This document shows, piece after piece, positions 1 to 48,262 of a stretch of DNA of 64,000 nucleotides. The position numbers and the translations under genes are program-made. The first letter of the stretch is position 1. Every line of letters starts with the position of its first letter. The stretch spans positions 1-64,000 of the forward strand of contig JABFFZ010000021.1 of the NCBI GenBank assembly GCA_013112725.1, given 5' to 3'. The notes beneath the pieces were generated by a model that was not told the origin of the DNA, made no database searches, and saw only the letters and a list, made by a program, of their open reading frames with translations. This DNA is from Chloroflexota bacterium (GTDB lineage Bacteria > Chloroflexota > Anaerolineae > Promineifilales > Promineifilaceae).

Positions 1-1070
1 TGGTGCTGGCCGGTGAATGTTACGCCGGCCAGCACCATCGCGCCGGAGACTTCGGCCAGTGTGCGAATCTCGCGCATCAGCGGCGTTTTACCCACGCCCG
101 GTTCGCCGCTGATGAGCAGTACGTGCCGGTCGCCGGGGTCATGGGTGGCCTGTTTCCAGAGTGTCTTTGCCTCGGCCAGTTCCTTTTCGCGCCCCACCAG
201 CCGCCCCTGGGCCAGCCGTTCCAGGGGTGAGGGGGGTGGTTCGGCGGCGCTGACGGCCGTAGGCGATAACAACGCCTGCCGGATGTGGGTCAATTTTTGG
301 CGAACGACGGTGGCCGACGCCGGGCGGTCGTCCGGGTTCTTTTGCAATAATTTCATGATCAACACATCCAGGGCGGGCGGCAGGTCGCTCTTATGGTTGC
401 TGGGGGGGAGGGGCGGGGCGTAAAGATGCTGTGAAATGACGGTCAGGGCATCGTCGGCGTTGAAGGGAAGCTGCCCGGTAACGAGTTCATACAACATGAC
501 GCCAAAGGCATAGAGGTCGGTACGGCCGTCAATGGCTTGCCCCAACGCCTGTTCCGGGGGTAAATAGAAGACGGTGCCGATGAAGGCGCCCTCGACGGTG
601 AGGCGGCTGGCAACGGAACGGGCCAGGCCAAAGTCAGTTAGTTTGGCCGTGCCGTCGTGGGTGATAATGACGTTTTCCGGCTTCAGGTCGCGGTGGATGA
701 CGCCGTTGGTATGGGCGTGTTCCAGAGCGGTGCTGATTTGGATGGCAATTTGCAGGGTTTCGGACAGGTCTTGTGGGCGGCGGTCATAGAGCGATTCACC
801 TTCTAGCATTTCCATGATGATATAGGACGCGCCTTCAAACTCACCGGCGTCGTAGATGGTGATGATGTTGGGGTGATTGAGCCGGGCGGCGGCCTGCGCT
901 TCATGCAGCAGACGGGCGCGGCCTTCGGTGCCCAACGTATCGGCGGAGAGCAGTTTCACGGCCACGCTGCGGTTGAGCAAGGTGTCCTGGGCGCGGTAGA
1001 CAACGCCCATGCCGCCCCGGCCGATTTCGGCTTCTAGATGATAGCGGTTGTTTAAGAGTGTGTTGATCAT
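1..1070 (-). CDS. Serine/threonine protein kinase with C-terminal ATPase domain (partial)
   Basis: Only about 356 N-terminal codons are present; the C-terminus lies beyond base 1. Residues 1-260 form a Hanks-type kinase: glycine loop GRGGMGVVYRA (residues 17-27), ATP lysine in VAVKLL, catalytic loop HRDLKPEN and metal motif DFGLA. After a short linker a second nucleotide-binding domain begins with Walker A GEPGVGKT, as in kinase-AAA/STAND regulators of the bacterial PknB superfamily. The start is the ATG at 1068-1070. The gene follows a SpoIIE-type phosphatase on the same strand, separated by a tandem-word spacer, so a kinase/phosphatase signalling pair is plausible (inference). What follows the ATPase domain cannot be seen. 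Confidence 0.9.
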   Translation of the reverse strand, partial: MINTLLNNRYHLEAEIGRGGMGVVYRAQDTLLNRSVAVKLLSADTLGTEGRARLLHEAQAAARLNHPNIITIYDAGEFEGASYIIMEMLEGESLYDRRPQDLSETLQIAIQISTALEHAHTNGVIHRDLKPENVIITHDGTAKLTDFGLARSVASRLTVEGAFIGTVFYLPPEQALGQAIDGRTDLYAFGVMLYELVTGQLPFNADDALTVISQHLYAPPLPPSNHKSDLPPALDVLIMKLLQKNPDDRPASATVVRQKLTHIRQALLSPTAVSAAEPPPSPLERLAQGRLVGREKELAEAKTLWKQATHDPGDRHVLLISGEPGVGKTPLMREIRTLAEVSGAMVLAGVTFTGQH

Positions 1071-28937: not shown

Positions 28938-29009
28938 TGCGTAATTGGGGTAATTGCGTTATGGAGTCACCAATTACCCAATTACCAAATTACCAAATTA
29001 CCAAATTAC
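28938..29009. repeat. Tandem-word inverted spacer (word TAATTGGG)
   Basis: GTAATTGCGTAATTGGGG is mirrored by CAATTACCCAATTACCAAAT and further AATTACC units. It lies upstream of galE. The same word recurs at 30327, 32283 and 48100. Confidence 0.88.
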
Positions 29010-30063: not shown

Positions 30064-30091
30064 TTGACACGGCCGTCCAATTGCATAAAAT
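30064..30091 (+). promoter_or_regulatory. Sigma-70-type promoter, probably leaderless
   Basis: TTGACA (30064-30069), a 16-nt spacer containing CGGCCGT of an octamer, and TAAAAT (30086-30091). The ATG at 30100 is 8 bases after the -10 box, so transcription would start at or within two bases of the start codon. Confidence 0.65.
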
Positions 30092-30099
30092 TAGAACAT

Positions 30100-30339
30100 A
30101 TGAGCGACAATTGGATTCGGGCAAGCGAAATTTCCACCTATCTCTACTGCCGCCGCGCCTGGTGGCTGAAACGCAAACAGGGCGCACAGCCGCAAAACGT
30201 CCACGAGTTACAAAAAGGGACGGCGTATCATCGGCAACACGGCCGTGTCGTCGTCCAATCTATCTGGGCGCGGCGCGTGGCATACCTGCTGCTATTTGTC
30301 ACGATAGCCCTTTTTGTCTATCAGTTGGTAATTGGGTAA
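30100..30339 (+). CDS. Cas4-like PD-(D/E)XK nuclease, N-terminal part
   Basis: This 79-aa product has SEISTYLYCRRAWWLKRKQG, the N-terminal cysteine helix of Cas4-type nucleases, then an HRQHGR segment and a transmembrane helix (VAYLLLFVTIALFVYQLVI). The stop is supplied by a TAATTGGG-type spacer. The catalytic acidic residues and the other three cluster cysteines are in the next frame, at 30387-30923. The two pieces look like one iron-sulfur nuclease gene split by a repeat. It is not adjacent to cas genes or a CRISPR array. Confidence 0.72.
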   Translation: MSDNWIRASEISTYLYCRRAWWLKRKQGAQPQNVHELQKGTAYHRQHGRVVVQSIWARRVAYLLLFVTIALFVYQLVIG

Positions 30340-30375
30340 TTGGGTAACTAAGTAATTACCCAATTACCCAATTAC
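30327..30375. repeat. Tandem-word inverted spacer splitting the Cas4-like gene
   Basis: TAATTGGGTAATTGGGTAAC is mirrored by TAATTACCCAATTACCCAAT. It lies exactly between the two halves of the Cas4-like nuclease. Confidence 0.88.
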
Positions 30376-30386
30376 TTTCTTCTAAA

Positions 30387-30923
30387 ATGGCAATCGGCGT
30401 TTTCTCCCTTGCTATTGGTTTACTCCTGCTGGCCCTGGCCTTAGGGCTGTGGCTCTGGTCGCGCAACCTGGAGGAGGAAGCCGGGCTGCCAGATGGCAAC
30501 GTCATTTACACCGACGCCGGGAGCACCTGGTTTAGCAACAATGACGCCCTGGTCTCCACTCATCTGCGCCTGACGGGGAAGCCGGATTATCTGGTGGAAG
30601 AGTCCAACGGCATGATAGTGCCGGTGGAGCTAAAATCCAGCGCCGCTCCCGCCGAACCGCACGAAGGCCACATCCTGCAACTGGCTGCCTACTGCCTGCT
30701 GGTGGAAGAAAACTATGGCATCCGCCCCACCTATGGCATTATCCAATACAACGATAAGTCGTTTGCGGTGGATTACACGCCAGAGCTAGAGGATGATTTG
30801 CTTGACCTGCTGGCCGATATGCGCGCCGACCTGTTCGCCCCGGACGTAGATCGCGACCACAACGACTGGATACGCTGCACCCGCTGTGGTGTGCGCGGCG
30901 CATGTGTGCAGCGGCTTGGGTAA
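30387..30923 (+). CDS. Cas4-like PD-(D/E)XK nuclease, C-terminal part
   Basis: This 178-aa product begins with a hydrophobic helix (residues 3-25). The nuclease core follows: LTGKPDYLVEE (metal Asp), MIVPVELKSS (E-x-K) and HILQLAAYCLLVEENYG (QxxxY). A terminal CTRCGVRGAC supplies three cysteines. Together with the single N-terminal Cys in the preceding frame they complete the four-Cys 4Fe-4S pattern of Cas4/AddB-like nucleases. The stop is again within a tandem-word spacer. The frame differs from that of the N-terminal part. Confidence 0.8.
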   Translation: MAIGVFSLAIGLLLLALALGLWLWSRNLEEEAGLPDGNVIYTDAGSTWFSNNDALVSTHLRLTGKPDYLVEESNGMIVPVELKSSAAPAEPHEGHILQLAAYCLLVEENYGIRPTYGIIQYNDKSFAVDYTPELEDDLLDLLADMRADLFAPDVDRDHNDWIRCTRCGVRGACVQRLG

Positions 30924-31019: not shown

Positions 31020-32285
31020 GTGACCACCATACAACGGGCGAAGGGGATGCAGGATGTTCTCCCCGCTGATCGCCGCTATTGGGATTTAGTGATAGACACG
31101 GCCGTGACCCTGGCACAACGGTACGGCTTCCAACGCATAGATTTACCCATTCTGGAATACACCGAACTGTATCACCGGGGGGTGGGTGATGCCTCTGACT
31201 TTTTTGTCAAAAAAGAGACCTACGAAGTAGAAGAATCCGAAGGCGTCAGCCTGACACTGCGGCCAGAATTTACGGCCGGTTTTATGCGCGCCTACATTCA
31301 AAATGGGATGGCCAGTTGGCCGCAGCCGGTGAAGCTTTACACCATCGGCCCTGCCTTTCGCCGCGAACGGCAGCAGGCCGGCCGTTACCGCCAGCACAGC
31401 CAGTTCAACTGCGAAATTTTGGGCGAAATTGATCCCGCCGCTGACCTGGAAGTGATGCTGTTAGCCATGAATTTGTATCGGGAATTGGGTTATAAAGGGT
31501 TGACCTTCCAGCTCAACAGCACCGGCTGCCCCACATGCAAACCGGTCTACGTGGACGCGCTCAAAACGTACCTCACCGACTACCTGCCCAACCTGGCCCC
31601 CATTGACCAGGAACGGCTGCGGCGCAATCCGCTGCGCATCCTGGATAGCAAAGAGCCGGGCATGGATGAACTTCTGGCAAACGCGCCGCACATTATTGAT
31701 TACCTGTGTGACGATTGCGAAGATCACTTCAACGAACTGCGTGGGCTGCTGGATGACCTGGATCAGAGCTACACCATCAATTTCCGGCTGGTGCGGGGGA
31801 TTGATTATTACACCAAGACGGTGTTTGAGGTGTGGGCGGAAGGCATTGGGGCGCAGGCGGCCGTGTGCGGCGGGGGGCGGTATGATGGGCTGGCGGAAAG
31901 CATTGGCGGCCCGGCTACGCCTGGCGTCGGTTTTGGCAGCGGCATTGAGCGCATCATTCTCGGTTTGCAGGAGGCCGGCATTGAGCCGCCCACCATACCG
32001 GAGCCGGAAATCCTGGTGGCCCATTTTGGCGGCGTCACCAAAACGGTCGCGGTGCAACTGACATTCCGTTTGCGTTCAGCCGGTATTGGCGCCCGGCTGG
32101 CCTTTGCCCGTGAGCGGCGCAGCCTGAAAAGCCAGATGCGCGAGGCCAATAAACACAACATCAAGACCGTCCTCATCCTGGGCGAAGAAGAAGTGGCGCA
32201 AGGGCTGGTGGTAGTACGGCCGTTAGACGGCGACGAGCAGCATTCCATTCCTTTGGATGAGGTGGTTTCTTTGTTGAAGAAGTAA
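31020..32285 (+). CDS. hisS: Histidyl-tRNA synthetase
   Basis: The protein is 421 aa from the GTG at 31020, which follows a strong GGAGGG site; upstream in-frame codons come from the spacer repeat. Class II motifs are present: RAKGMQDVLPADRRYW, GPAFRRERQQAGRYRQHSQ (motif 2), LVRGIDYYTKTVFE and GFGSGIERI (motif 3), plus a C-terminal anticodon-binding domain. It charges tRNA-His. The length is normal. The TAA stop starts a TAATTGGG-word spacer before nadK. Confidence 0.97.
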   Translation: MTTIQRAKGMQDVLPADRRYWDLVIDTAVTLAQRYGFQRIDLPILEYTELYHRGVGDASDFFVKKETYEVEESEGVSLTLRPEFTAGFMRAYIQNGMASWPQPVKLYTIGPAFRRERQQAGRYRQHSQFNCEILGEIDPAADLEVMLLAMNLYRELGYKGLTFQLNSTGCPTCKPVYVDALKTYLTDYLPNLAPIDQERLRRNPLRILDSKEPGMDELLANAPHIIDYLCDDCEDHFNELRGLLDDLDQSYTINFRLVRGIDYYTKTVFEVWAEGIGAQAAVCGGGRYDGLAESIGGPATPGVGFGSGIERIILGLQEAGIEPPTIPEPEILVAHFGGVTKTVAVQLTFRLRSAGIGARLAFARERRSLKSQMREANKHNIKTVLILGEEEVAQGLVVVRPLDGDEQHSIPLDEVVSLLKK

Positions 32286-32322
32286 TTGGGTAATTACGTA
32301 ATGACCCAATTATCTAATTACT
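32283..32322. repeat. Tandem-word inverted spacer (word TAATTGGG)
   Basis: TAATTGGGTAATTACGTAAT is mirrored by CCCAATTATCTAATTAC. It includes the hisS stop and ends 6 bases before the nadK start. Confidence 0.82.
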
Positions 32323-48099: not shown

Positions 48100-48262
48100 G
48101 TAATTGGGTAATTGGGTAATTGAGTAACTAACTCATGTTACGCACCTGCTCTGGTCGGTGTCCCACCGAGCCAGCGTCGCTCGGTCTGGAAACCGGCGAC
48201 AGCCCGCGTAACATCAGTAACTAAAGGATCAATTACCCAAAATTACCCAATTACTCAATTAC
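48100..48262. repeat. Tandem-word inverted spacer (word TAATTGGG) with nested insertion
   Basis: TAATTGGGTAATTGGGTAAT on the left is mirrored by AATTACCCAAAATTACCC and AATTACTCAATTAC on the right. The apex is interrupted by the element at 48132-48215. Confidence 0.88.
48132..48215. mobile_element. 84-bp nested element flanked by 9-bp direct repeats
   Basis: AGTAACTAA occurs at 48123-48131 and again at 48216-48224. The enclosed 84 bp has near-terminal inverted repeats ATGTTACGC and GCGTAACAT, and the interior is GC-rich. Removing the insert and one direct repeat restores a normal tandem-word hairpin. Confidence 0.7.

Follow-up and report, generated by a model that had tools for sequence, protein, structure and literature searches.

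Are two adjoining reading frames that together spell out a Cas4-like nuclease the remains of one broken gene, or do they encode the two parts of a single enzyme? The question is raised by a locus at positions 30100-30923 (plus strand) of the 64,000-nucleotide stretch of DNA analysed here in full (the window; Chloroflexota bacterium, assembly GCA_013112725.1, contig JABFFZ010000021.1). A preliminary description of the window had recognized a Cas4-like locus in two pieces at these positions, which we confirm; the coordinates are exact. We conclude, with a probability of about 0.88, that the two pieces are functional genes for the two subunits, here called N and C, of a membrane-anchored Cas4-type (RecB-family) 4Fe-4S nuclease.

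Subunit N is encoded by the first open reading frame (ORF; 30100-30339, plus strand, 79 amino acids), as read from its translation and a match to TIGR00372. It carries the first cysteine of the Cas4 pattern (Cys1; C17, 30148-30150) within the stretch STYLYCRRAWW, as well as the motif-I histidine H44 (30229-30231), which forms a GxxxH motif with G40. Its C-terminal end is a hydrophobic membrane helix (about residues 60-78), with the N terminus predicted to lie inside. Subunit C is encoded by the second ORF (30387-30923, plus strand, 178 amino acids; translation and matches to PF12705, PF01930 and TIGR00372), whose reading frame is +2 relative to that of the N gene. It begins with a hydrophobic membrane helix, so that, as first described, each half has such a helix adjoining the break. 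The nuclease lobe follows, with the motifs GKPD, PVELK, QLAAY and CTRCGVRGAC; these hold the active-site residues D67 (30585), E81 (30627), K83 (30633), Q98 (30678) and Y102 (30690), and the cysteines C164 (30876), C167 (30885) and C173 (30903), all on the plus strand. The two products cover consecutive parts of the 180-position TIGR00372 profile (N positions 2-47, C positions 61-179), and C exceeds the Pfam cut-offs of PF12705 (44.6 bits) and PF01930 (33.9 bits), neither of which is reached by N.

Cas4 is a single-chain nuclease in solved structures, and its H/D/E-x-K and QxxxY residues are presumably the catalytic positions of the family. At this locus the four cysteines of Cas4, one N-terminal plus CxxCx5C, are present only when N and C are taken together, and the RecB-type PD-(D/E)xK site (His, Asp, Glu-x-Lys, QxxxY) likewise spans both products. 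The invariant ligands and catalytic residues are divided two in N to eight in C. A full Cas4-type iron-sulfur (Fe-S) and active site requires both pieces, as had been proposed from the window; because its residues are shared out in this way, the cluster and the metal site would form only in the heterodimer.

Related genomes keep both halves, a point that the preliminary description had singled out for checking. When 59 relatives were searched with each half, C was found in 51, N in 49, both in 49 and neither in eight, and in the two with C only (G010 and G016) the match starts at base 2 of its contig. Within the loci fetched from these genomes (L001-L050), N and C are separate ORFs in 44/44 pairs. 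In 25 pairs the genes overlap or are at most 20 bp apart, in 12 the gap is 21-200 bp and in seven it exceeds 500 bp; the relative frames 0, 1 and 2 occur in 12, 11 and 21 pairs. The genes lie on different contigs in G021, G041, G044 and G046, and 2.8 Mb apart in G048, a one-contig genome. A second set, overlapping the first, comprised the best 80 of 243 relatives from 84,980 genomes (L052-L131). N was within the locus in 57 of these, never sharing an ORF with C; for the 23 loci without it, 19 genomes were searched and N was found elsewhere in 17. All of the best 80 are named or plausibly Chloroflexota; since only these 80 of the 243 were kept, spread in other phyla is under-sampled.

The pairing extends across the phylum. 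We searched 301 genomes drawn evenly from it. Of the 38 in-class genomes, 32 have C, with E-values no higher than 5e-44, and N is present in every one of these; the remaining six have neither, one of them (G057) giving a generic Cas4-like match only. Beyond the class, C was found at E≤1e-52 in 29 genomes, each of which also has N at E≤1e-5, so that 61/61 strong C matches of the draw are accompanied by N. Weaker out-of-class matches to C (3e-40 to 8e-22) occur in 28 genomes, eight of them with N at 1e-5. Generic Cas4 genes of the same phylum have both halves in one ORF in 6/8 fetched cases (the other two gave no N match), so the test is able to see an unsplit gene.

Fused N-C ORFs were seen only in L168 (339 amino acids) and L182 (328 amino acids), both from family f44 and both with a pair of hydrophobic stretches separating the N part from the C part. 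A maximum-likelihood tree was built from 87 rows, with L172, L174, L199 and L207 excluded as partial or diverged, and its bootstrap is not settled. In it the two fusions group with the split loci L167 and L197 as a set of four nested in the split clade. Re-fusion is therefore the simpler reading.

Both halves are constrained. C17, W21, G40 and H44 are invariant in 40 rows of subunit N, and D67, E81, K83, Q98, Y102, C164, C167 and C173 in 45 rows of subunit C. Among six congeners, the ratio of nonsynonymous to synonymous substitution (dN/dS) is 0.064-0.239 for N (11/15 pairs, dS being saturated in the other four) and 0.033-0.103 for C (15/15 pairs), showing that both are under purifying selection within the genus. 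The same pair is also found in plasmid records of Bacillus subtilis and of two Planctomycetota, where N is annotated "hypothetical protein" and C "Dna2/Cas4 domain-containing protein" or "PD-(D/E)XK nuclease family protein"; Bacillus N and Bacillus C each match the same three plasmids. Residues invariant over the three phyla include, in Bacillus numbering, C17, W21, G43 and H47 of N and D51, E65, K67, Q83, Y87, C148, C151 and C157 of C. Phage records gave no match to the pair; viral contigs gave one distant single-ORF protein, which does not show the two-gene pattern.

We further investigated topology and fold. Each protein has one strong hydrophobic 19-residue window, in 40/40 rows of N and 45/45 rows of C. 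In N, the 12 residues ahead of the helix carry on average 2.92 lysines plus arginines and the 12 behind it 0.35; in C the corresponding values are 0.07 and 2.73. Under the positive-inside rule, this bias places the soluble part of each protein on the inner side of the membrane and the break on the outer side. In locus L065, N and C share a frame with a single TAG and two codons between them, and reading the TAG as Gln gives a chain of 263 residues that was predicted with a mean local confidence (pLDDT) of 94.3 and a global score (pTM) of 0.89. Against Cas4 7mi4_A, VIA-align returned Z 20.6 over 182 residues at 2.7 A, with model residues 1..263 placed on 5..203; the next matches were 8d3l (19.3), AdnAB (15.3), SSO0001 (13.4), EXO5 (13.4) and Dna2 (12.5). 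The joined chain of the congener L054 behaves similarly (pLDDT 92.2, pTM 0.87; Z 20.0 to 7mi4_A, 179 residues, 2.6 A). In the models, the GxxxH motif and the first membrane helix are parts of a single long helix, and the second membrane helix leads into the beta core. The first structure alignment had 102 rows drawn from part of the locus set (eight joined pairs, 41 N-only and 53 C-only). The joined pairs of these two relatives are predicted with confidence to fold as a complete Cas4 with a two-helix membrane hairpin.

Altogether, a heterodimeric Cas4-type protein is highly probable. Assembly of the halves as a two-subunit membrane nuclease, which had been offered as one of two outcomes, becomes the most likely one in the light of the co-occurrence, the conserved residues and the joined-chain Cas4 fold of relatives. 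From these lines we infer that the two chains bind each other, hold a cluster and cut DNA. Each subunit would contribute one transmembrane helix, with both soluble parts facing the cytoplasm according to the positive-inside rule, and the two helices would pack as a hairpin, as those of an unsplit ancestor would have done. Subunit N would supply Cys1 and the motif-I histidine, and subunit C the Asp, Glu, Lys and Gln/Tyr residues together with the other three cysteines, so that the Fe-S cluster and the metal site would be completed in the heterodimer only, beside the inner face of the membrane. Single-stranded DNA ends are the substrate of the nuclease domains of Cas4, Dna2 and AdnAB. The heterodimer would likewise cleave DNA ends at the inner membrane face, most likely single-stranded ones. 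That it is an active nuclease in the window's own genome is likely.

Several observations weigh against this reading. Both halves in the window miss the TIGR00372 cut-off of 65 bits (N 25.5, C 51.9). Two genomes of the second set, G059 and G074, have C with no N found by genome search, and G138 of the phylum draw has N with no match to C. N was lacking at 1e-5 in 20/28 genomes with the weaker C matches; of the 17 of these that were fetched, 15 show N at loose thresholds, two of them being the fusions, and N was not seen in L199, where the contig ends, or in L207. The catalytic Asp is lost in the fusions L168 and L182 (ARPA and GKPT in place of GKPD) and also in their split f44 neighbours L167 and L197. 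Finally, the models are of joined chains in which a stop is read as Gln, not of a dimer formed from free chains, and the pairs folded are those of the relatives L065 and L054, the window's own pair being out of frame.

The spacer between the genes (30327-30386, plus strand) is an inverted repeat of TAATTGGG words that covers the intergenic stretch and the very end of the N gene, its final codons and stop included; the stop TAA (30337-30339) falls within the second of a pair of TAATTGGG words. In the window the word occurs more often than expected by chance (12 matches against 2.5 expected, with 0/100 shuffles as high), and the spacer forms a perfect hairpin of -31.3 kcal/mol (z -7.6). The preliminary description had this repeat cut one gene in two. 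As it stated, the stop and the frame change do lie in or at the repeat; the repeat did not, however, split the gene. The gap measures 38-161 bp in six congeners, where different words fill the same spot (TAATTGGG or TAATTGCG class, CGTAATC class and CAGTGTTCAGT class) and every spacer folds better than its own shuffles (z -9.6 to -2.4); in many other genera the gap is of a few bases and the repeat is absent. Because the spacer sequence differs between congeners, the repeat is not the cause of the split, and the same follows from the short gaps (25/44 pairs) and the unlinked genes (5/49 genomes) noted above. Homologues naturally encoded as two genes free of this repeat, the observation named in advance as telling against that account, are what we find. 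The spacer came later and filled a gap that already existed. Tandem words arranged as inverted repeats also fill gene gaps elsewhere in the genus, with different words in the spacers of L002-L006, and within the window spacer-type words stand inside, or bordering on, further gaps between genes (28942-28984, 32283-32312 and 48101-48253).

These results bear on two explanations in which a single protein was, or still is, encoded. A cas4-like gene broken by repeat insertion, leaving a pseudogene or an accidental split, would account for the stop and frame change within the repeat and for the related words that the congeners L002 and L005 bear at the same place. Yet every genus with both halves in its fetched locus has two genes, bar the two f44 fusions, which are nested in a split clade; the two-gene state is found with or without repeats, and in several genomes with the genes unlinked. 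A pair that has truly died looks different, as in Planctomyces sp. SH-PL62, where the plasmid copy (L216) is decayed, with N not recognized and C frameshifted. The conservation of both halves across the phylum and the purifying selection on them within the genus exclude the dead gene that had been considered for the window, and with two genes throughout the relatives we rule out a pseudogene made by repeat insertion, giving this explanation next to no weight. Programmed frameshifting or stop read-through at the junction, yielding one protein, has hardly more in its favour. N and C do share a frame with one stop between them in some relatives, and nature has fused them twice, but the relative frame varies among the 44 pairs, which rules out frameshifting as a general mechanism, some pairs are unlinked or lie up to 800 bp apart with an L,D-transpeptidase gene between them, and C has its own start codon.

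Other explanations accept two functional genes and differ in what the products do. N could be a membrane adaptor or regulator and C could work alone or as a homodimer; the two are genetically separable, and N adjoins a translin-family gene even where C is elsewhere (L147 and L148). We regard such separate functions as improbable, since N retains exactly the Cas4 residues missing in C (Cys1 and the motif-I histidine), invariant over three phyla, co-occurs with it almost perfectly and completes the whole Cas4 fold in the read-through models. Slightly less improbable is a membrane-bound scaffold that has the Cas4 fold and binds DNA but does not cut it. Part of f44 (L167, L168, L182 and L197) has lost GKPD and the motif is altered in f33, f53, f61 and f74; the loss of the catalytic Asp in some distant members indicates that the fold can outlive catalysis. 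Against such a pseudo-nuclease, D, E, K, Q, Y and the four cysteines are invariant in the 45 and 40 rows and in Bacillus and Planctomycetota. The same heterodimer could, finally, serve as an anti-phage or anti-plasmid membrane defence nuclease attacking incoming DNA. It stands beside DNA methyltransferase genes on Planctomycetota plasmids, and PADLOC gave weak DruK and Cas4 matches. In Chloroflexota, however, the gene is chromosomal, widely retained and set in surroundings that look like housekeeping ones; on plasmids, the Bacillus pair comes after a helicase gene, and umuDC is near the Paludisphaera pair. A defence role seems to us unlikely, though far less so than the explanations above.

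For the heterodimeric nuclease itself, CRISPR adaptation is an unlikely role. Cas1 is missing in the window's genome (G000) and in 24/51 genomes bearing C, counts that are approximate because draft genomes are included, so adaptation is not its general job. We infer instead a housekeeping processing of DNA at the membrane, such as repair or clearance of incoming DNA. A role in repair or DNA uptake is a tentative proposal, somewhat short of even odds, and is the more probable physiological task when set against defence.

The gene surroundings vary. In the window the neighbours are, by eye, galE-like, hisS-like and NAD-kinase-like ORFs. In families other than the window's own, a translin-family gene often stands directly before N, in most cases no more than 70 bp away (for example L088:5086-5730, L109:5061-5705 and L127:4347-5027). 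An identification of this upstream gene as xseB was rejected, as all four proteins tested (4/4) match the Pfam translin family, one of them over the cut-off. The translin-family gene is present in 58/59 genomes, including some that have neither N nor C, and is thus a neighbour and not a co-lost partner. In several lineages N and C are separated by an L,D-transpeptidase (YkuD) gene, with gaps up to the 800 bp already mentioned; it was identified by Pfam in two loci (L091:4465-5223 and L127:5286-5936) and by eye, from a SHGCIRL-type motif, in L031, L038, L041, L043, L046 and L049. On the Bacillus subtilis plasmid NRS6116_2 (L213:7958-11279), which also bears pilus-assembly genes, the order is helicase gene, small ORF, N, C and hfq gene. 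The Paludisphaera plasmid pair has a methyltransferase gene nearby in addition to umuDC, and the Singulisphaera plasmid pair lies near an N-6 methylase gene. The decayed SH-PL62 copy, which illustrates the natural appearance of a dead pair, is immediately preceded by an IS701-family transposase gene.

Upstream of the N gene, positions 30064-30099 (plus strand) read as a likely sigma-70-type leaderless promoter, with TTGACA (30064-30069), 16 bp, TAAAAT (30086-30091) and AGAACAT directly before the ATG. The upstream element recurs in genomes of the same family (L001-L029), where AGAACAT is exact in 24/28 and ATGAGC in 27/28, so that conservation reaches the serine codon. AGAACAT resembles the left half of a LexA-type site; the right half reads GAGC, leaving a left half-site only. 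Operators of the GAAC-N4-GTTC type stand near lexA in 11/12 loci, and the single GAACATATGTTC in G000 precedes an ORF that looks like uvrA by eye. Control of the N promoter by LexA is a possibility.

Compared with known systems, the pair is closest to Cas4 (TIGR00372/PF01930; type I-C 8d3l and the Cas4/1 fusion 7mi4). It shares the fold of the whole pair (VIA-align Z 19-21, from the joined-chain models of two relatives), the order of motifs, Cys1 plus CxxCx5C, H/D/E-x-K and QxxxY. It differs in consisting of two polypeptides, as two ORFs in 44/44 (L001-L050) and 57/57 (L052-L131) pairs, and in an insertion of two membrane helices that follows the GxxxH helix. The cas1/cas2 association of CRISPR-associated Cas4 is not seen, Cas1 being absent from nearly half of the genomes that bear C, and in the window the genes lie away from cas genes, as for solo-Cas4. 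An Fe-S staple is present in nucleases of the AdnAB, AddB and Dna2 type. The RecB-family domains of these proteins and EXO5 share the fold (Z 10-15) and are domains of large helicase-bearing chains or soluble single chains, whereas the pair consists of two tiny membrane subunits with no fused helicase. The Argonaute-associated Cas4 family ACE1 (9iab and 9iac) is likewise a Cas4-family fold outside CRISPR (Z 11-12); its structures are single chains of 266-269 residues, and no membrane hairpin was noted in the rows seen. Hudaiberdiev et al. (2017, PMC5704561) describe a monophyletic solo-Cas4 in many Chloroflexi, and the solo-Cas4 counted there is probably our C subunit. In the portion of that paper's text considered here, the word "split" does not appear and "membrane" appears once, for another protein. 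A split or membrane-bound Cas4 was not found in the open-licence PubMed Central papers searched, and relative to these the pair is a Cas4-family variant not described before, in which the fold and residues are kept and the single chain and the CRISPR link are not.

We lean towards seeing in the pair an ancient class of obligate heterodimeric Fe-S nuclease: a membrane-hairpin Cas4 that would have been cut in its outer loop before the Chloroflexota classes diverged, spread to or from plasmids of Bacillota and Planctomycetota, and re-fused at least once, with the 1+3 cluster as a possible assembly switch. If this is true, a 4Fe-4S cluster shared one cysteine to three could act as a switch for assembling the active nuclease at the membrane, for DNA entering or leaving the cell. 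In many Chloroflexota, and on B. subtilis plasmids, two membrane proteins would have to come together to complete one cluster and one active site. The C subunit, which plasmid records name a Cas4-domain protein or PD-(D/E)XK nuclease, is short of one cysteine and of the histidine. The pair lends itself to testing cleanly how two different subunits can be stapled by an Fe-S cluster, and what the function of solo-Cas4 is apart from CRISPR.
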